Positions 48,559-57,362 of a DNA stretch of 64,000 nt are shown piece after piece. Below the pieces are notes generated by a model. It made no database searches. It was given only the letters and a program-made list of their open reading frames with translations, and had not been told where the DNA came from. Position numbers and translations under genes: made by a program. Origin of the DNA: Faecalicoccus pleomorphus DSM 20574. GTDB taxonomy: Bacteria > Bacillota_I > Bacilli_A > Erysipelotrichales > Erysipelotrichaceae. The stretch's first letter is position 1; every line of letters begins with the position of its first letter. The DNA is taken from contig NZ_ATUT01000007.1 in assembly GCF_000420345.1 (NCBI RefSeq), positions 1-64,000 of the forward strand, read 5' to 3'.

Positions 48559-49737
48559 CTATTTTAATTCGTCTAAAAGACTGGAACCAATCGTTCCTTC
48601 CGGCATGGAAACACCAAAGTTATCGGCAATTGTGGCACCGATCACCGCAAATGTTTTCGCATCCGCTAATACACCTGTACCCTTCATGGACGGCGAATAG
48701 GCCAGTAAAGGAACCATTTCACGCGTATGATCTGTTCCTTTATATGTTGGATCGTTGCCGTGATCAGCTGTCACCAAAACCAGGTCATCCTCATGCAGCT
48801 GTTCTAATAAAGTACCTAAAGCTACATCAAATTTTTCCAGCTCTTCACCATATCCAATTGGATTTCTTCGATGTCCCCATAAAGCATCAAAATCCACCAG
48901 ATTCACAAAACACAAACCCGTGAAATCTTCTTTGGCAATTTCATTGGTCTGTTCCATACCATGTACGCTGCTCTTAGATTTATAAGCCTTGGTAATGCCT
49001 TCACCATCAAAGATATCCCGAATCTTGCCAACGCTGATCACATCATGTCCTGCTGCTTTTAAGGCATCTAAAGCGGTCTTGCCATAAGGCTTTAATGCAT
49101 AATCATGGCGATTGGAAGTTCGTACGAATTCTCCTTTTTTCTTTCCGGTATAAGGACGGGCAATAACACGCCCTACCTTCCATTCCGGTTTCATAGTAAG
49201 ATCTCTTGCAGCCTGGCAATAGCGATACAAAGTATCGACACCCATTGTTTCTTCATTTCCGCAAATCTGTAACACAGAATCGGCAGATGTATAAACAATC
49301 AAATCTCCATTGTTGATTTCCTGTTCTGCCAGCTCATCCAGAATTTCAGTACCGCTGGCCGCTTTGTTTCCAATGATCTTACGCCCATCACAGCGCTTGC
49401 TTAATTCATCCAATAATTCTTTTGGGAAACCGGTTTCGGTAAATGTCTGAAACGGTGTTGTGATATGCAGCCCCATCATTTCCCAGTGGCCTGTCATCGT
49501 ATCTTTTCCGGCACTGGCTTCCTGTAAGCGCAAGGCATAGCCCATCGTCTGTGTATCTTTTTGAATACCGATGTTGCCAAGCCCTAACTTCATCATATTT
49601 GGAATTTTCAAATCCGGCATCTTTTCTAAGATATGTCCAAATGTATGCGCTCCTTCATCATCGAATTCTTTGGCATCCGGCGCATGACCGATCCCAAAAG
49701 AATCGACAACGATCGTAAAAACTCTCTTGTATTTCAT
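48559..49737 (-). CDS. deoB: Phosphopentomutase
   Basis: DeoB, 392 residues, moves phosphate between C1 and C5 of ribose or deoxyribose. [27 protein letters not shown] (catalytic Thr), [11 protein letters not shown] and [25 protein letters not shown]-type metal sites (in parts TADHGNDP and [10 protein letters not shown]) are complete. It takes the ribose-1-phosphate made by DeoD, whose gene lies two bases upstream. Last gene of the yczE-like/deoD/deoB unit. Confidence 0.97.
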
Positions 49738-49739
49738 AT

Positions 49740-50456
49740 CTACCTCATGATGGCAGCTTCTAAAGCCACTTCCATCATCTGCGCAAAAGAAGTCTGTCTT
49801 TCCTGTGCACTGGCATGTTCATTGGTCACTAAAGAATCGGAAATTGTCAAGATACAGGCGGCATTTTTGCCTAAGATCTTCGCATTGTGGAATAAGGCAA
49901 AGCTTTCCATCTCCACACAGACACATCCATGCTCATTATAAAAATCATTATGATCCGGCACATTGGCTTCATGATAGAAAACATCACTGGAATGAATGCG
50001 TTCTTCACGCAGCTTGACACCTAATTTGTCGGCAGCTTCTTTGATGGTTTCGTTTAATTCCGGACTTGGATACTGAATGTCCCCTTCTACACCGGCCTGT
50101 GCCATGCAGTAAGTGGATTCGCTCCAGCAGCTGTTGGCCAACACCAGATCAAAAATATGAAGATCACTTGTATAAGCGCCGGCACTACCGATACGGATGA
50201 TATTTTCTACACCATATTCATGAAATAACTCATAAGAATAGATGCCGATGCTTGGCATTCCCATGCCGCTTCCCATAACGGAAATTCTTTTTCCTTTATA
50301 GTCTCCGGTATAACCAAACATATTGCGCACGGTATTAAACTGTACGATATTTTCCAGATATGTCTCGGCGATAAATTTCGCACGAAGCGGATCACCGGGC
50401 ATCAAAACGGTTTTGGCGATATCGCCAGGATTTGCATTGTTGTGTGCTGTTGCCAT
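49740..50456 (-). CDS. deoD: Purine nucleoside phosphorylase, DeoD type
   Basis: Hexameric purine nucleoside phosphorylase, 238 residues. [15 protein letters not shown], the phosphate loop [23 protein letters not shown] and the base-binding [15 protein letters not shown] are present, as is the catalytic Asp in TISDSLV. It splits purine (deoxy)nucleosides to base and pentose-1-phosphate. ATG 50456 has GGAGG seven bases upstream; the ATG two codons before is too close. A second gene of this type lies at 51229. Confidence 0.96.
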
Positions 50457-50469
50457 AAACATTCCTCCT

Positions 50470-51081
50470 CTACTTGGCTTTTTTCAGTAAAATTCTTTTT
50501 ATAGGCTGACTTGTCAGCAGCTTCAAACACAGTTGAATACCACTTCCCATACATACGATGGCCAGCAAAGTACCAATCGCAGCCGGCGCTCCTAATACGA
50601 TTCCCAGAATCGTAAAGAAGATATCCGCACTGGTTCGCACGATGCCGACAGCCAGATGAAAACGATCACATAACGTAAAGACTAACGCCTCATAAGCTCC
50701 CTTGCCATAATCCGCAAGGGCATAAAACGCAATTCCAAAGGCAAGGATCAACAATCCCAATACCATCAGAATGATCCGAAGCAGATAGCTGGCCTCTTCA
50801 AAATTCAAATTCACAAACGCATCTGTTGTCAGTGCAATCACAATTGGATTTAAAAGGCTTCCCAAATGAATTTGTTTTCGATCCATGAAAAATACGATCA
50901 CAAGAAGCACGGCACAGACTAACAGATTGGCCTGTCCGACCGTAATGTGTAAGTGATTGGCGATTCCGATCCAAAATAATGTCATCGGATCGCTTCCCAG
51001 ATTCACGGCGATCGTCATGCTGATTCCTACTCCCATGATAAAGGAACCTACGATCACAAGCAACAATTTCCTTAGATCCAT
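50470..51081 (-). CDS. YczE/YitT-like integral membrane protein
   Basis: A 203-residue membrane protein with five or six helices and conserved small blocks VNLGSDPMTLFWIGI, the DAFVN loop and YGKGAYEALVFTL, typical of the YczE/YyaS/YitT group. Function is not established for the group. Its place in front of deoD and deoB suggests a link to nucleoside handling. It starts 13 bases after a terminator-like hairpin, so its expression must pass that hairpin. Confidence 0.78.
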   Translation of the reverse strand: MDLRKLLLVIVGSFIMGVGISMTIAVNLGSDPMTLFWIGIANHLHITVGQANLLVCAVLLVIVFFMDRKQIHLGSLLNPIVIALTTDAFVNLNFEEASYLLRIILMVLGLLILAFGIAFYALADYGKGAYEALVFTLCDRFHLAVGIVRTSADIFFTILGIVLGAPAAIGTLLAIVCMGSGIQLCLKLLTSQPIKRILLKKAK

Positions 51082-51093
51082 ACTCTCTCCTTT

Positions 51094-51134
51094 CCCAAAA
51101 AAAGATACCGCAAAGATTTTCTTTACAGTATCTT
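51094..51134 (-). terminator. Terminator/attenuator hairpin between deoD2 and the yczE-like gene
   Basis: Minus-strand AAAAGATACTGTAAAG / CTTTGCGGTATCTTTT stem (two mismatches) followed by TTTTTTT. It ends 13 bases before the yczE-like ATG, leaving no room for another promoter. Confidence 0.8.
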
Positions 51135-51157
51135 TTGTGGCTTTTCTTTTGACAACA

Positions 51158-51228: not shown

Positions 51229-51933
51229 TTAGGCAAAGGAAGCTAATGTGTCCAAAGCAATCTGAATCATCGCATCAAAGTTTTGTTCACGCTCGGCTAC
51301 ACTCAACTTTTCTTTTTTCAAAGAATGATCACTGACCGTTAAAATCGTAGCCGCCTTTTTCTGTGCCTGATCGGCATTGTGTAATAACGCAAAGCTTTCC
51401 ATATCGACGGCCAGACAATGCTTCTGTTCACAGATCAGATGCTTATCTTCTTTTTTCTTATAGTAAAAACAATCACTGGTATGCAGACGACCGGTTTTGT
51501 AGTTTTGGGCATGCTCACAAAGCGATTTCCAAAGCGTTGGATCCGGTTCCACAATATCTTTTTCATAACCGCTGTACGTATGGGCATAGGTCGATTGACT
51601 CCAGCAGGAATCCGGAATAAAGATATCCTTTAAATCTAAATCCATGGTATAGGCTCCGCAGGAACCGGCCCGCACAATGACTTCAACATCGTATTTATTA
51701 AACAGTTCGTGCGAATAGATTCCCATTGAACCACATCCCATACCACTTCCCATGACGGTGATACGTTTTCCTTTATACATGCCGGTATAAGCCAACATAC
51801 CGCGAACTTCATTAACCAAAGCGGCGTTTTCTAAAAACTTACCGGCGATATAACGAGCACGATACGGATCACCCGGCATTAAGACCACCGAAGCAATCTG
51901 TTCTTTATCCGCTGAATTATGTACCGTTGCCAT
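51229..51933 (-). CDS. Second DeoD-type nucleoside phosphorylase, in the PTS operon
   Basis: A 234-residue paralogue of the DeoD enzyme at 49740. It keeps VVLMPGDPYRARYIA, the loop GSGMGCGSMGIYS, VIVRAGSCGAY, CLAVDMESFALLHNA and catalytic TVSDHSL. Note that a catalytic-region Ser-Leu becomes Ser-Asp-His, and residues around the base pocket differ, so the preferred nucleoside may differ. Its ATG follows the stop of the 202-residue gene directly (TAAATG). Presence at the end of a PTS operon is unusual and hints that the operon handles a nucleoside-like substrate. Confidence 0.9.
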   Translation of the reverse strand: MATVHNSADKEQIASVVLMPGDPYRARYIAGKFLENAALVNEVRGMLAYTGMYKGKRITVMGSGMGCGSMGIYSHELFNKYDVEVIVRAGSCGAYTMDLDLKDIFIPDSCWSQSTYAHTYSGYEKDIVEPDPTLWKSLCEHAQNYKTGRLHTSDCFYYKKKEDKHLICEQKHCLAVDMESFALLHNADQAQKKAATILTVSDHSLKKEKLSVAEREQNFDAMIQIALDTLASFA

Positions 51934-52542
51934 TTACCATTGCCATCCATTGAATGTAAAGGTGGTTTCGGCCACATCGCTAGGATCGTATTCTTCCAAG
52001 ATCTTGGCATAGCGATCTTTATAATCATTATCCACCTGGGCCTGTGGAATGACGATGCTGGCTTCGTTTAAGAAATGGAAAGAATCTCTTCCCATGGCTT
52101 TTCCACGTTTTGTATGCTTGTCCAAAGCCACATCCGGGATTTCCGGTAATTTTCCCATCGCAAAACTTTTCATCACGATGTTTTTCAATAAATCACTGGA
52201 GCGATCCTTTTCGCTTTGGCACATATAACGAATTGCGTGAATGAAGTAGATCGTACGATCATTATCCCCATAATCAAAATTTAAACGGGCCTGTGACAAG
52301 GCGTTGACCACAACGGCAGCCAGAGGATTGCCCATGCCGATATCTTCTACAGAAATCGTCAAAAGACGACGCCACATTTTTTCTTCCAGCTGTGGTGAAG
52401 AAATATACAGCTCATAGGCAAACATACAGGCCTCTTCTTCTTTTCCTCTTCGAATACATTTTTGTAATGAGCTGATCACTTCATCGCAGGCATAGCCGTT
52501 GCGTGTAGTGATCTGTGCCCATGGATCGTATGAAAATGCCAT
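51934..52542 (-). CDS. 202-residue stand-alone protein resembling the MgsA/RarA C-terminus
   Basis: I do not know a named function. Blocks DEVISSLQKCIRRGKEEEAC, WRRLLTISVEDIGMGNPLAA and YFIHAIRYMCQSEKDRSSD follow the order and pattern of the C-terminal helical domain of MgsA/RarA (ALxKSxRGSDxxAA, RRLxxxASEDIGLADP, LAxxxxYLAxAPKSN), but there is no AAA+ ATPase part. The C-terminal block DKHTKRGKAMGRDS...HF..EA..VIPQA.VDNDY is its own. It lies one base after PTS IIA and joins deoD2 by TAAATG. A close paralogue is at 56669. Cytoplasmic, soluble. Confidence 0.7.
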   Translation of the reverse strand: MAFSYDPWAQITTRNGYACDEVISSLQKCIRRGKEEEACMFAYELYISSPQLEEKMWRRLLTISVEDIGMGNPLAAVVVNALSQARLNFDYGDNDRTIYFIHAIRYMCQSEKDRSSDLLKNIVMKSFAMGKLPEIPDVALDKHTKRGKAMGRDSFHFLNEASIVIPQAQVDNDYKDRYAKILEEYDPSDVAETTFTFNGWQW

Positions 52543-52543
52543 A

Positions 52544-52870
52544 TTATGCTTCCTTTCCTAATTTTTTATAAATCTCGATAATTTCAAGAACCAGAACCTT
52601 GATGGTTTCACAACTCATAAACTGGTCTTCCGCATGTAATACCAACATGGAAACCTGCGGTGTGTTTTCCGCCGCTTCCTTTTGAAGCAGCTGCATATGC
52701 GTTTCATGTGCTGTCTTTAGCACTTCGTCCCCTTGAAGGATCTGTTCCTGTGCTTGTTCAAAATTTCCTTCTCTTGCCAAACGGGCCGCTTCAATATAAG
52801 TCGATTTGGCCACACCCGAATAGGCAATGATTTCCATGGCAATCTGTGAAAGACGTTCCAGATCTGCCAT
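52544..52870 (-). CDS. PTS lactose/cellobiose-type IIA protein
   Basis: Phosphocarrier IIA of the lactose/N,N-diacetylchitobiose family, 108 residues. Three-helix protein with the phosphorylated His79 in MLVLHAEDQFM and the family start AMEIIAYSGVAKSTYIEAA. It passes phosphate from HPr to IIB. Three bases after IIB and one base before the 202-residue gene. The sugar cannot be told from IIA. Confidence 0.93.
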   Translation of the reverse strand: MADLERLSQIAMEIIAYSGVAKSTYIEAARLAREGNFEQAQEQILQGDEVLKTAHETHMQLLQKEAAENTPQVSMLVLHAEDQFMSCETIKVLVLEIIEIYKKLGKEA

Positions 52871-52873
52871 AAC

Positions 52874-53167
52874 TTACCCCTTTAAAGCTTTCGCCTGTTC
52901 GTAGGCAGCCTTACCATCAGCCATCGCATACACACGCATATCGACACAATCAGTTGGTACACCAACTTTAGCTTTGATATCGTTGACCATATAACGAATC
53001 TGTGGAGCCACCAGGCATACATCCCATTTTCCGGCTTCATCAGAAGCACTGGCAGAGCTTACCGCCTGTACTGATGCATCCTCTCCGATACTCTGTGCAT
53101 ATTCTGCGATCTTCTTTACTAAGATGGAACTGGACATTCCGGCATTGCATACGACTAAGATTTTCAT
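52874..53167 (-). CDS. PTS lactose/cellobiose-type IIB protein
   Basis: Phosphocarrier IIB, 97 residues, with the phosphocysteine Cys7 in MKILVVCNAGMSSSILV and the usual VCLVAPQIRYM strand and DCVDMRVYAMADG end. GAGG six bases upstream supports ATG 53167 rather than a GTG four codons earlier. It phosphorylates the sugar carried by IIC (55151). It begins 15 bases after the regulator gene. Confidence 0.93.
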   Translation of the reverse strand: MKILVVCNAGMSSSILVKKIAEYAQSIGEDASVQAVSSASASDEAGKWDVCLVAPQIRYMVNDIKAKVGVPTDCVDMRVYAMADGKAAYEQAKALKG

Positions 53168-53182
53168 ATTTTTCCTCACTCT

Positions 53183-55117
53183 CTATAAGACTTGAACGAT
53201 ACGTTCCAAATAATCAATCAGTTCTCCGGAATTTTCGATCTGGGTCAAGACGTTGACCAGTCTTTCCGAAGCCGCGATCTTATTGATAAGATCATAGATA
53301 TGAATCATTTCTTTATTGATTTTAGGCTCATGCGCCCCTACAAATACGATACGAACCGGTTTTTGCGCATGCGTAAGCGAGTTTTTTATGATTGCCACAC
53401 AAATTCCTGTTTTCTTTGCCTGATTTTCCAAAGGGTGTGAAAAGTAAACCCCATTGCGAATATGTGTGGAATAAATCTGTTCTCGCTGCAGCGTCATCGT
53501 GGAAAAGAGATCCGGATCCTCGATGTTTTGTTGTTGATAAAGATTGAAAGCACAAGCTTCGATTACTTGTACAAAGGAAGTCGCCTGATCAAAGAAAAGC
53601 ACTCGTTTTCGATCAAAGACCTCATGGAAGATTACTTCACTGGAAGTTAATGTCATCGTTTTGACAATAAAAGTTTCCAGACGTTTTCTTTCGCTTTCTC
53701 CCGGTAATTGCGTGATTTCTACGATCGGAATACCGATTTTTGCTTCAATGGGCATATCCGAAATGACCAGATCCGCACTTCCCTGTTTTAGCTGCTCTTT
53801 AAGCTGATATAAAGGAATCTGCGAAACGATCTCAATACGGGAACCAAATTCCTGATGCAGCCAAACATGCAACATATTGGCAAAGCTTTGTGAGGTTCCA
53901 CTGACTAAAATCGCCTGTACCCTTGCCTTTTGAGCCCTTAAAAACGGCATGACATACATCGTTAAAAACGATATTTCATCTTCGCTCAAATACAGTCCGT
54001 AGCGCTCATGAATGATCGGTACGATCAACATCGTGATCTCATACGCAAACGCATATTTGACCTTGACCTCCTGTAACAGAGGATTGGTCAGCTGATAGTC
54101 CATCAATAAGCGCTTGATAGTAAACTGCAGATGAATCTTAAAGTTCTCAAACAATGATGGAATCTGAGTAAAATCCATATTGTATTTTGCCTTCATCTGT
54201 AAGGTGAATTCTTCGACGATCTCATCGACTTCCGTGCCCGATACCACATTTTGTTTACTGCTGTAAAAGCCAAGTGTTTCAATGTAGTTTTGAAGCAGAT
54301 GACAATCCATCGTCGTCAGATCAAAGCGAAGATCCTGCAACAGGCTGGTCAACATGCGAACCAGCACTTCATTGGGCTGAAACAGTTCTACTTTTTTTGT
54401 CAGTGCATATCCGTTTTCTGAACGAAGCATGGTAAAGAAGACCATCCATGCGATCACAAACAACATCTGATCAGAAAGGACAATGGAATTGCTTCGACAA
54501 AAGCTGCTGATATAGTCCGTAATATCGTTTAATTCTTCCATGTCCGCATCTTCTTTGACCATTTGGTATAAATGAATATCTACCAGTTGATTGGAGCGAT
54601 AGATCTCTTCCTTTGCCAAACGATAGAAAAGCGTTCGAATTTCCACTTCATCACTTTTTAACTGTAATTTACCATTTTCTAGTGTTAAAGAGCAGAAATG
54701 ATACTTCTGCTCTAGATAATGAATCAGGCTGTTTAGATCCTTATAAATTGTTTGTTCCGAAACATACAACATATCCGCCATATCACCCAAGCTGATCTGT
54801 GGCTGATGAATCAATTTTCCCAGCATAAAATATTTACGCTGTTTGGAAGAAGCGGCAACCTGCGAGCGGTTAAACGAATCCATCACCTTTACACACTCTT
54901 TGATACGACTGATATTTTCCTGCATGATAAAGTAACCAGAACGCTTGCTGGACTGAATCTGACACTGCGCATTTTTCAAGACCAGATTGATAGCCGCAAT
55001 ATCATTGCGGATTGTTCGGGTACTGACCTGCATTTTTTCGGCGATCTCATTGGCATAGATGCCCCGGCTGTGATTTAAGATCATCTTGATTACATTTTTC
55101 TGACGGTCACTTAACAC
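53183..55117 (-). CDS. BglG/MtlR-type PRD transcriptional regulator
   Basis: A 644-residue multidomain activator. Order: N-terminal HTH (NVIKMILNHSRGIYANEIAEK, TRTIRNDIAAIN), a second Mga-like HTH (SLGDMADMLYVSEQTIYKDL), two PTS regulation domains (about 190-400, with YISSFCRSNSIVL and MLIVPIIHERYGLYL), an IIB-like domain (VQAILVSGTSQSF) and a C-terminal IIA-like domain with THIRNGVYFSHPL and IVFVGAHEPKIN. Start is GTG 55117 with GAGGG seven bases upstream. Phosphorylation by the PTS likely sets its activity on the celB/56669 control region. Confidence 0.9.
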   Translation of the reverse strand: MLSDRQKNVIKMILNHSRGIYANEIAEKMQVSTRTIRNDIAAINLVLKNAQCQIQSSKRSGYFIMQENISRIKECVKVMDSFNRSQVAASSKQRKYFMLGKLIHQPQISLGDMADMLYVSEQTIYKDLNSLIHYLEQKYHFCSLTLENGKLQLKSDEVEIRTLFYRLAKEEIYRSNQLVDIHLYQMVKEDADMEELNDITDYISSFCRSNSIVLSDQMLFVIAWMVFFTMLRSENGYALTKKVELFQPNEVLVRMLTSLLQDLRFDLTTMDCHLLQNYIETLGFYSSKQNVVSGTEVDEIVEEFTLQMKAKYNMDFTQIPSLFENFKIHLQFTIKRLLMDYQLTNPLLQEVKVKYAFAYEITMLIVPIIHERYGLYLSEDEISFLTMYVMPFLRAQKARVQAILVSGTSQSFANMLHVWLHQEFGSRIEIVSQIPLYQLKEQLKQGSADLVISDMPIEAKIGIPIVEITQLPGESERKRLETFIVKTMTLTSSEVIFHEVFDRKRVLFFDQATSFVQVIEACAFNLYQQQNIEDPDLFSTMTLQREQIYSTHIRNGVYFSHPLENQAKKTGICVAIIKNSLTHAQKPVRIVFVGAHEPKINKEMIHIYDLINKIAASERLVNVLTQIENSGELIDYLERIVQVL

Positions 55118-55150
55118 CAGGCATCCCTCTTTTCCATTTTACTGATTCGT

Positions 55151-56443
55151 TTATGCGTTTTGTGCTTCTTTCTGTGCTTCAATCTCGCGTTCTTTTCTGA
55201 CCTCATCGGCTTCCATAGCTTTAAAGAACGGATAATAGAAGATACCCATCAAGACGACATTGAAGATTGCCAATACGGCTGCCTTCCAATCCATCGTCAA
55301 TAAGAAAGCCTGGAATCCCGGAGGCAAGAAGCCTGGTGCTTCTCCTAACGGCAAAGATACTAAACCAGTAGCCATCGCTTCATAAGAAATGACCGCACAA
55401 ATCACTGGTCCCAATACAAATGGTACTAACATGTAAGGGTTCATGATCATTGGCAAACCAAAGATGATTGGCTCATTGATACCGAAAATAGAAGGAACGA
55501 TACCAACTTTACCGATAGAGCTTAATGATTTTGCCTTGGAGCGACACATCATGATGACTAACAACAAAGTCATACCGGAACCGGAAACCTGCAGGAATCC
55601 AAAATAGAATCCATACGTAAAGATATGTTCTGGTGTTGCGCCGGCTGCAACGGCAGCCGCATTTTCGGCAGCATAAGTGATCGCAAACGGTGCCCAAACA
55701 CTCTGTGTGATGGCAGCACCATGTAAACCAAATACCCACAACAGCTGTGTTAAGAAGATAATGATCGCCACAGCCCAAACAGAATCCATCGAAGAAATGG
55801 CCGGTGCCAACAAACTGATGATGATCTTAGGGAATGTCGTTCCCGCATATGTCTGGCACAACAAAGCAACCGCAACAGCCAAAATAACGTTGACCGCAAA
55901 TGGAATCAAAGACATGAAACTTTCAGATACCATTGGAGGTACGCTGTCCGGCATACGAATCGTCCAGTTATGTTTCACAAACATACGAGTAATTTCTACT
56001 ACTAGTAAACCAAAGATAATACTTACGAATAGACCTTCTGATCCTAAAGAAGTAATGTCGAAGATCATACTGTTTTCGGCATCCACCTTCACACAAAGTA
56101 CTACCTGGCAAAGCATAGCCATAATTCCAAGCATGCTTGGAGATTTCATCTCATATCGTTTAGCTAACGATTCAGCGATGAAAAAGGCTGAGAATAATGA
56201 CATGATGTTAGTCGTAAAATAAGTTGGAAAGTTAAAAATGAGAATGTGATCATTGACCCAGGCTCCAAAACCTCCCCCGAAAAGGTTTCCTAAGCCTACC
56301 GGAATCATACAGAATGAACCGATGATGATGATCGGAATGATCGCAACCACACCGTCTTTCACTGACTGCAGATGTCGCTGTTGTTCCAATTTCTGTGCAA
56401 TCGGAAACAACCACTTCTGCAGCGCATTTTGAATTGCTTGCAT
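55151..56443 (-). CDS. PTS lactose/cellobiose-type IIC permease
   Basis: Membrane channel subunit, 430 residues and about ten helices. The start WLFPIAQKLEQQRHLQSVKDG, the YELIAGPA-free family blocks FGLHGAAITQSVW, PSIFGINEPIIFGLPMIMNP and the late FLPPGFQAF are typical of the CelB family. Substrate not identifiable; the neighbouring nucleoside phosphorylase suggests it may not be a plain disaccharide. GAGAGGAG precedes ATG. First gene of the operon, divergent from the 56669 gene. Confidence 0.93.
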   Translation of the reverse strand: MQAIQNALQKWLFPIAQKLEQQRHLQSVKDGVVAIIPIIIIGSFCMIPVGLGNLFGGGFGAWVNDHILIFNFPTYFTTNIMSLFSAFFIAESLAKRYEMKSPSMLGIMAMLCQVVLCVKVDAENSMIFDITSLGSEGLFVSIIFGLLVVEITRMFVKHNWTIRMPDSVPPMVSESFMSLIPFAVNVILAVAVALLCQTYAGTTFPKIIISLLAPAISSMDSVWAVAIIIFLTQLLWVFGLHGAAITQSVWAPFAITYAAENAAAVAAGATPEHIFTYGFYFGFLQVSGSGMTLLLVIMMCRSKAKSLSSIGKVGIVPSIFGINEPIIFGLPMIMNPYMLVPFVLGPVICAVISYEAMATGLVSLPLGEAPGFLPPGFQAFLLTMDWKAAVLAIFNVVLMGIFYYPFFKAMEADEVRKEREIEAQKEAQNA

Positions 56444-56492
56444 TTTGTTTCTCCTCTCTCTTTACTAAGTCCACTATGTCATGGCACTCTCT

Positions 56493-56520
56493 ATTTTATG
56501 TGATTTTTGTGGGAAAACAA
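56493..56520 (-). promoter_or_regulatory. Promoter of the PTS operon
   Basis: Minus-strand TTGTTT (56515-56520), 16-base spacer, TAAAAT (56493-56498). Confidence 0.55.
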
Positions 56521-56539
56521 ATAATTTATTTCCTTTTTC

Positions 56540-56582
56540 CTTAGGAAATTGAAAAAAAGTACCCCCAATCAACTTTCCTAAG
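56540..56582. promoter_or_regulatory. Inverted repeat between the divergent promoters (regulator site)
   Basis: CTTAGGAAA (56540-56548) and TTTCCTAAG (56574-56582) are perfect complements 25 bases apart. A third related segment, CCATGGGAAATTG (56583-56595), repeats CCTTAGGAAATTG (56539-56551) with two changes. Placed just upstream of both promoters, as expected for an activator such as the PRD protein. Confidence 0.6.
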
Positions 56583-56600
56583 CCATGGGAAATTGTTTAG

Positions 56601-56629
56601 TTGAACAAAAAATGACTCGTGCTTATAAT
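56601..56629 (+). promoter_or_regulatory. Promoter of the 56669 gene
   Basis: TTGAAC (56601-56606), 17-base spacer, TATAAT (56624-56629); AAGGAGG follows before the ATG. Confidence 0.75.
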
Positions 56630-56668
56630 AAATTCCGTAAAACAAAACATATTTAAGGAGGTACTTTC

Positions 56669-57277
56669 ATGAGTAAAGATTATAGCTTATGGGCAGAAGC
56701 CAAAACAAAACACGGTTTAATGGCCGATGAAGTCATTTCCGGATTACAGAAATCCATTCGTCGTTCCATGACAGAACTTGCATGCCGTTATGCGTATGAG
56801 CTTTACACAACAAGCCCTGTATTATTGGAAAAACTGTGGAGTCGTTTGTTAACGATTTCTGTAGAAGATGTCGGATTCGGAAATTTGGATGCCGCAAGAC
56901 ATATGTATGTATTAAATCAGATGCGTAAAGAATATGCCTATGATGATCCAGATCAGCCAATGTATTTTATCCATGCGATTCGTATTTTATGTTCCAGCCA
57001 AAAAGATCGTTCCAGCGATTTCTTAAAGAACATCGTCATTAAAACGGCTGCAATGGGTGAAGTTCCGGAAATCATCGATCTGGCATTAGATAAACACACA
57101 AAACGCGGTAAAGCAATGGGACGTGACTCAAAACACTTCTTCAATGAAGCCTGCAAGGTCATTCCCCAGGCCGAAGTTGATAATGACTATCGTGAACGCT
57201 ATGGAAAGATCCTGGAAGAATACGATCCAAGCAAGGTCGAAGAGGATGCCTTCCAATATGCGATCGGCCGTGTATAA
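56669..57277 (+). CDS. 202-residue stand-alone protein, paralogue of the 51934 product
   Basis: Same length as, and more than half identical to, the protein at 51934 by eye. Shared blocks are DEVIS-LQK-IRR, RLLTISVED-G-GN, YFIHAIR, DRSSD-LKNIV and DKHTKRGKAMGRDS, followed by VIPQAEVDNDYRERYGKILE. It resembles the C-terminal region of MgsA/RarA without an ATPase. It has an excellent promoter and AAGGAGG site and reads away from the PTS operon, sharing its control region. Single gene, two-way terminator after it. Function unknown; strong co-placement argues it works with the PTS-linked pathway. Confidence 0.72.
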   Translation: MSKDYSLWAEAKTKHGLMADEVISGLQKSIRRSMTELACRYAYELYTTSPVLLEKLWSRLLTISVEDVGFGNLDAARHMYVLNQMRKEYAYDDPDQPMYFIHAIRILCSSQKDRSSDFLKNIVIKTAAMGEVPEIIDLALDKHTKRGKAMGRDSKHFFNEACKVIPQAEVDNDYRERYGKILEEYDPSKVEEDAFQYAIGRV

Positions 57278-57303: not shown

Positions 57304-57362
57304 AAAAAAAGTGTGCATTCCACAAACTGATTCGTTCAGCTACGTGATCTGCACACTTTTTC
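57304..57362. terminator. Two-way terminator between the 56669 gene and fic
   Basis: AAAAAGTGTGCA and TGCACACTTTTT form a stem around a long loop of about 32 bases, with A and T runs in both directions. Confidence 0.75.

Follow-up and report, generated by a model that had tools for sequence, protein, structure and literature searches.

The operon for a lactose/cellobiose-type phosphotransferase system (PTS) in Faecalicoccus pleomorphus DSM 20574 raises the question of what such a transporter brings into the cell when the last gene of its operon codes for a DeoD-type purine nucleoside phosphorylase (PNP2) and when it is accompanied by two 202-residue proteins, one (MGS1) encoded within the operon and the other (MGS2) transcribed divergently. 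The operon lies in a stretch of 64,000 nucleotides (contig NZ_ATUT01000007.1, positions 1 to 64,000), the whole of which was analysed and is called the window here. The name MGS was given in this work to stand-alone RarA/MgsA C-terminal ('collar') domain proteins linked to PTS. The analysis revealed that MGS is a conserved partner of two clades of lac-family EIIC, a partnership that is almost certainly genuine and is a new result. As to the substrate of the window PTS, import of a nucleoside-containing glycoside was given a probability of about 0.45.

MGS1, used as the only query against GTDB genomes, detected 54 loci, 53 of which had sequence on the relevant side and were considered informative. 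A lac-family EIIC was located close to MGS in all 53, in Bacillota, Fusobacteriota and Actinomycetota. In a survey of 295 genomes of the order to which the window belongs, MGS was present in 51, and each of the 17 EIICs with 59–100% identity to the Longibaculum EIIC had an MGS gene 20–45 bp away. Hand-matching of the two tables put a listed EIIC no more than 6 kb from 36 of the 39 strong MGS matches in the order; the remaining three adjoined GH4 (L082 and L182) or lay at a contig edge (L181). Chance neighbourhood of MGS and PTS genes was ruled out by this conservation across phyla. In the 99.9%-complete, 1.99-Mb Faecalicoccus genome, for which all genome-wide statements come from family searches, the window EIIC was the only lac-family EIIC found and both MGS copies flanked its operon, so the adjacency was far beyond chance.

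The commonest setting consisted of an RpiR regulator followed by divergent MGS and EIIC genes that overlap (often start/stop) or lie a few tens of bp apart. It was observed in Clostridium, Romboutsia, segmented filamentous bacteria, Fusobacterium, Trichococcus, Vagococcus and others, as well as on Enterococcus faecium megaplasmids and Cetobacterium plasmids. On the E. faecium DO plasmid NC_017963.1 (L183, 7986-11699), an IS110 element was located between MGS and its EIIC, and the RpiR gene read as two open reading frames (ORFs); a Subdoligranulum plasmid also carried an MGS copy (L188). E. faecium BepA was considered as an MGS-linked EIIC and set aside, as the listed bepA synonym, fruA, belongs to a different PTS family. 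The RefSeq records examined for MGS were annotated as 'hypothetical protein', and no paper on a stand-alone RarA/MgsA_C domain with a PTS was found in the open-access literature.

The EIICs of this RpiR-MGS-EIIC type (e.g., L034:8626-9942) had Asn in place of the conserved His (GxNG versus GxH[GP]). The GxNG motif was identified in 42 of 45 such proteins, the remaining three not being caught by the pattern, and all other lac-family EIICs checked had His. The GxNG EIICs, for which EIIA and EIIB are often absent, may represent non-canonical PTS permeases.

The features of the window locus are as follows.

55151..56443, minus strand: EIIC of the lactose/cellobiose family, 430 aa (TIGR00410, 313 bits, cut-off 236; ChbC 3qnq, E 4e-59; family His and Glu kept)
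53183..55117, minus strand: PRD-type transcriptional regulator, 644 aa, with HTH_11, Mga, PRD and EIIA-2 domains (Pfam)
52874..53179, minus strand: EIIB of the lac/cel type, Cys kept in CNAGMSSS (PF02302 and sequence)
52544..52870, minus strand: EIIA of the lac/cel type, active-site-type His kept in HAED (PF02255 and sequence)
51934..52542, minus strand: MGS1, stand-alone RarA/MgsA C-terminal domain, 202 aa (PF12002; model and structural match given below)
51229..51933, minus strand: PNP2, purine nucleoside phosphorylase paralogue of the DeoD type, at the 3' end of the operon (TIGR00107; clade-specific GSGMG-CG-SM and VDME)
51097..51136, minus strand: intrinsic-terminator-like hairpin and T-run 3' of PNP2 (-22.3 kcal/mol, z -5.6)
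56444..56668: divergent control region common to EIIC (leftward) and MGS2 (rightward), 225 nt, non-coding
56539 and 56583: direct repeat CC(T/A)T(A/G)GGAAATTG in the divergent control region
56601-56629: sigma-70-like TTGAAC-17-TATAAT facing MGS2
56669..57277, plus strand: MGS2, second stand-alone RarA C-terminal-like protein, 202 aa (identity to MGS1 and tree clade given below; orthologue of the GH4-PTS-linked type)
57306..57361, plus strand: terminator-like hairpin 3' of MGS2 (z -5.4)
50470..51081, minus strand: YczE/YitT-type membrane protein, first gene of the next unit (NF052291, 104 bits, below the cut-off of 205)
49740..50462, minus strand: neighbouring DeoD1, housekeeping-type purine nucleoside phosphorylase (NF004489, 293 bits, cut-off 230)
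48559..49737, minus strand: neighbouring DeoB phosphopentomutase (NF003766, 550 bits, cut-off 256)

The ORF list showed the genes for EIIC, the PRD regulator, EIIB, EIIA, MGS1 and PNP2 as a tightly packed minus-strand unit (56443-51229) with intergenic gaps of 33, 3, 3, 1 and 0 nt in the order of transcription. Pfam and NCBIfam profiles supported every assignment (IIC of the lacE subfamily, IIB, IIA, PRD regulator, PNP and, for MGS1, MgsA_C). The initial annotation had described a complete PTS followed by a 202-residue protein and a DeoD-type phosphorylase, with a close paralogue of the former divergent from the same control region; ORFs and both profile sets agree with this gene order, MGS2 starting 225 nt from the EIIC start. 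PNP2 is the final gene of the PTS operon, and the strong hairpin with a T-run 3' of it indicates that YczE-DeoD1-DeoB (51081-48559) forms a separate unit. Two other candidates were rejected: riboswitch control of the operon, as there was no Rfam match in the window (in locus L166 a purine riboswitch was located ~5.5 kb from the MGS gene), and a defence system, as there was no PADLOC match.

The window PTS looks functional by its sequence. The GLHGA and INEP motifs of its EIIC align to ChbC (3qnq) and retain the conserved His and Glu, and the phospho-Cys of EIIB and the phospho-His of EIIA are both present in the Pfam matches. The single-function cellobiose and lactose equivalog models of NCBIfam all scored below cut-off. 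The EIIC, EIIB and EIIA families, the PRD regulator, the layout and the active-site-type residues are shared with the lac/cellobiose PTS operons ChbBCA, CelABC and LacFE; in contrast to them, the window operon has no glycosidase and contains a DeoD-type PNP and MGS proteins. Neither ORFs nor profiles revealed a phospho-glycosidase in the operon, and such an enzyme is common in the lac/cellobiose PTS family without strictly defining it. The initial remark that a glycosidase is missing thus held for the operon, and a family search found no GH1 enzyme in the genome; it did not extend to GH4, one of which is encoded on another contig. This GH4 has the CNVP motif of the 6-phospho-beta-glucosidase type and is adjoined by its own RpiR-type regulator with no PTS beside it.

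A second EIIC clade, with ~50% identity to the window EIIC, occurred together with a GH4 bearing the CDMP motif of the 6-phospho-alpha-glucosidase type. Such loci were detected in Faecalibacillus (L020), C. difficile cryptic clades (L038-L040), Collinsella (L056), G306 (L080) and G460 (L172). The operons of L020, L056, L080 and L172 resemble that of the window in their EIIC, PRD regulator and MGS2-type protein, and differ from it in the CDMP GH4, which the window operon lacks. In the MGS tree, MGS2 was placed in the GH4-PTS clade (support 100/100), and MGS1 grouped with the MGS1 proteins of the RpiR-MGS-EIIC type (98/94), though the EIIC in the window belongs to the GH4 type. Since the two copies fall in different clades, the window locus seems to be a hybrid, in which a PTS of the GH4 type, already equipped with MGS2, gained a second MGS and a PNP in an operon without GH4. 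Two other genes recurred around these operons. An FAD-dependent oxidoreductase (PF21688) adjoined the EIIC of GH4/PNP-type operons (L004:2442-3821, L020, L056, L080, L081 and L173) and was missing beside the window operon. A YczE/YitT-type membrane protein, which could be a transporter, was located in or beside MGS-PTS operons (50470-51081 in the window, 5' of deoD-deoB; L020:6558-7172; L080).

The MGS proteins are related to RarA in both sequence and fold. MGS1 scored 37.2 bits with Pfam MgsA_C (PF12002, cut-off 27); MGS2 had no Pfam match of its own and was placed by its identity to MGS1 (63% over 197 aa). The AlphaFold model of MGS1, built with 35 aligned homologues, had a mean pLDDT of 92, and its structural comparison with the RarA C-terminal domain 2r9g gave a Z of 16.6 over 119 residues at 2.1 A. 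The next-best structural family, the clamp-loader subunits, reached a Z of at most 9.4. Residues 133-202 were barely covered in the structural matches, and the likeness of this tail to RarA is one of sequence, extending through residue 191. The fold and sequence of MGS descend from the RarA C-terminal domain. The initial description of stand-alone MgsA/RarA-like proteins was therefore right about this domain, the collar known from E. coli MgsA (3pvs) and E. faecium RarA (2r9g), and is to be narrowed as regards the rest of RarA: in contrast to the full protein, MGS lacks the AAA+ ATPase module (202 aa in total, no AAA match in Pfam) and is genetically linked to transporters. The family is strongly conserved, with a mean column identity of 71%. 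R32, E44, R86, D95, R105, R114 and K120 were invariant across the MGS sample, whereas the aligned RarA sequences had other residues at these positions, a pattern consistent with a novel ligand site or interface.

In one locus (L179:6869-8809), a full-length rarA was followed by an MGS gene and then by TetR and a lac-family EIIC-EIIB-EIIA set, and this pair possibly preserves a vestige of how MGS arose. More distantly related RarA C-terminal proteins, likewise stand-alone, were encoded in Arthrobacter and Microbacterium phages (L185 and L189, annotated as AAA-ATPase) and on a Halobaculum plasmid (L187), in the vicinity of genes for glycosyltransferase, UDP-glucose dehydrogenase or nucleotide-sugar functions.

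Its sequence marks PNP2 as a dedicated paralogue in which the active site is intact. Like hexameric DeoD, it scored above the TIGR00107 equivalog cut-off (239.4 versus 232.25 bits) and kept the catalytic residues in alignments, the roles of which we assume to be those of E. coli PNP. Seven PTS-linked PNPs formed one clade (99/98) with common substitutions and retained catalytic residues; in contrast to hexameric DeoD, the GxGMG-[IVM]-P loop is changed to GSGMG-C-G and VEME to VDME. Another DeoD was encoded elsewhere in every examined genome with a PTS-linked PNP. The retained catalytic residues and clade motifs ruled out that PNP2 is a degraded duplicate.

Nucleoside genes were found near MGS in other settings as well. 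G460 contained EIIC-PRD-GH4-EIIA-MGS-MGS-DeoD-DeoB in one gene run, and in Collinsella genes for a nucleoside hydrolase and a PfkB kinase came after the PTS-GH4-MGS set. A separate divergent MGS clade (~52% identical) was located in clusters encoding a PnrA-like (Bmp) binding protein, an ABC ATPase, permeases and an ADP-ribosylglycohydrolase, several of which add DeoD and two deoxyribosyltransferases; among the 11 regions fetched, 7 were of this kind, with no lac-family EIIC beside MGS. The initial annotation had named a wide spread of the 202-residue family without any tie to PTS or nucleoside genes as grounds against its proposal; the outcome was the reverse, the family being tied to the lac-family PTS and, in another clade, to PnrA-type ABC transporter, PNP and deoxyribosyltransferase genes. 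A 45%-identical MGS (L167:7973-9896) was flanked by sugar ABC transporter genes on one side and by the gene for a type I phosphodiesterase/nucleotide pyrophosphatase on the other. E. coli yegTUV codes for a putative nucleoside symporter, an ADP-ribosylglycohydrolase and a sugar kinase (PMC10819704). Akin to the ABC-type clusters, it combines an ADP-ribosylglycohydrolase-family protein with what may be a nucleoside transporter; it contains neither MGS nor PTS.

For the window we infer the following substrate, order of reactions and role of MGS. A complete lac-family PTS operon would have given up the enzyme that customarily closes it, in the nearest relatives a GH4 phospho-glycosidase, in exchange for a dedicated purine nucleoside phosphorylase. 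The imported compound would be, in the simplest case, a glycosylated purine nucleoside with its outer sugar phosphorylated by the PTS. The sugar phosphate would then be removed, perhaps by the single GH4 of the genome, PNP2 would cleave the purine nucleoside to the base and ribose-1-phosphate, and the neighbouring DeoB would convert the latter to ribose-5-phosphate. Because ordinary PNPs require a free 5'-OH, a nucleoside that the PTS phosphorylated directly at its 5' position would not serve PNP2, whereas import of a glycosylated nucleoside would. MGS1 and MGS2, genetically obligate companions of this type of EIIC, would most likely act in the cytosol by binding the (phospho)compound after its import and supplying PNP2, be it as an enzyme or as a carrier/sensor; binding of a small compound rather than DNA is likely, as they combine the RarA collar fold with their own set of invariant charged residues. 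Glycosylated nucleosides occur in nature, examples being 5'-O-alpha-glucosyl tubercidin (PMC7459636) and 3'-O-ribosyl-adenosine (PMC6290457).

Import of a nucleoside-linked sugar, as initially proposed, is favoured by the PNP2 clade, the ABC-type clusters and the lack of CNT, NHS and Bmp nucleoside transporters in the window genome, where family searches, each with positive controls, found none. Several observations weigh against it. The commonest MGS setting, with RpiR, MGS and EIIC alone, contains no nucleoside gene and often neither EIIA nor EIIB; the related operons contain GH4; several more distant MGS genes (L079, L168-L171) showed no functional theme; and the genomes with ABC-type clusters belong to related genera and do not represent many independent events. 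The nearest NCBIfam names for the MGS-linked ABC transporter were 'putative B6 ABC', far below cut-off, which makes its substrate uncertain, and an MFS fragment lies between the Collinsella nucleoside genes and the PTS genes. PNP2 could have arisen by duplication of the neighbouring deoD, and neither a PTS for nucleosides nor a PTS with a nucleoside phosphorylase was found described in the open-access literature searched. The broader idea, that a PTS serves nucleosides or glycosyl-nucleosides and that the RarA collar has become a small-molecule handler common to PTS and ABC nucleoside uptake, is considered rather unlikely, and the window system is unusual rather than a new kind of transport.

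Such a duplication is also the starting point of an alternative which we consider unlikely, though a serious contender: an ordinary beta-glucoside/cellobiose PTS, with PNP2 as a co-transcribed passenger from a tandem deoD duplication and the GH4 on the other contig cleaving the sugar phosphate. The match of EIIC, EIIB and EIIA to the lac/cellobiose subfamily, the CNVP type of the only GH4 and the position of DeoD1 and DeoB directly downstream of the operon all agree with it. However, the PTS-PNP link is kept without DeoD1 or DeoB nearby in L006 and L017, and PNP2 belongs to a clade of its own with fixed substitutions, PNP1-like motifs being present only in the L017 protein, which has a basal position in the tree. 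The GH4, moreover, has its own regulator and no PTS neighbour, and the operons with a related EIIC bear the alpha-type enzyme.

Two further explanations concern MGS itself. It would be rather improbable, and still worth weighing, that MGS is a structural or regulatory PTS subunit, a collar-like oligomer docking on EIIC or EIIB for gating or signalling independently of the substrate, with the nucleoside genes incidental. MGS adjoins EIIC whatever else the operon holds, often with a start/stop overlap, no glycosidase is common to all MGS settings, and the RarA collar is an oligomerisation domain in E. coli MgsA. Against such a subunit stand the whole MGS clade in ABC clusters without an adjoining lac-family EIIC, the few members with neither PTS nor nucleoside genes, and the operons in which EIIA, EIIB and the regulator separate MGS from EIIC. 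A retained DNA-repair role, e.g., as a modulator of the RarA tetramer induced together with sugar uptake, is very improbable: descent from RarA, the MGS gene directly 3' of a complete rarA in L179 and the phage relatives annotated as AAA-ATPase speak for it, but the MGS invariants differ from those of RarA, other DNA-repair genes were not found beside MGS in the loci checked, and the window genome encodes its own full-length RarA.

Returning to the reading in which the window PTS imports a nucleoside-containing glycoside, if true it would add a new substrate class to the PTS and show the recruitment of a DNA-repair domain into metabolism. The occurrence of MGS in gut Erysipelotrichales, Clostridium, Romboutsia, Fusobacterium, segmented filamentous bacteria, E. 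faecium megaplasmids and Collinsella makes the family a genetic handle on importer function, and the results caution against labelling stand-alone MgsA_C proteins as DNA-repair ATPases.

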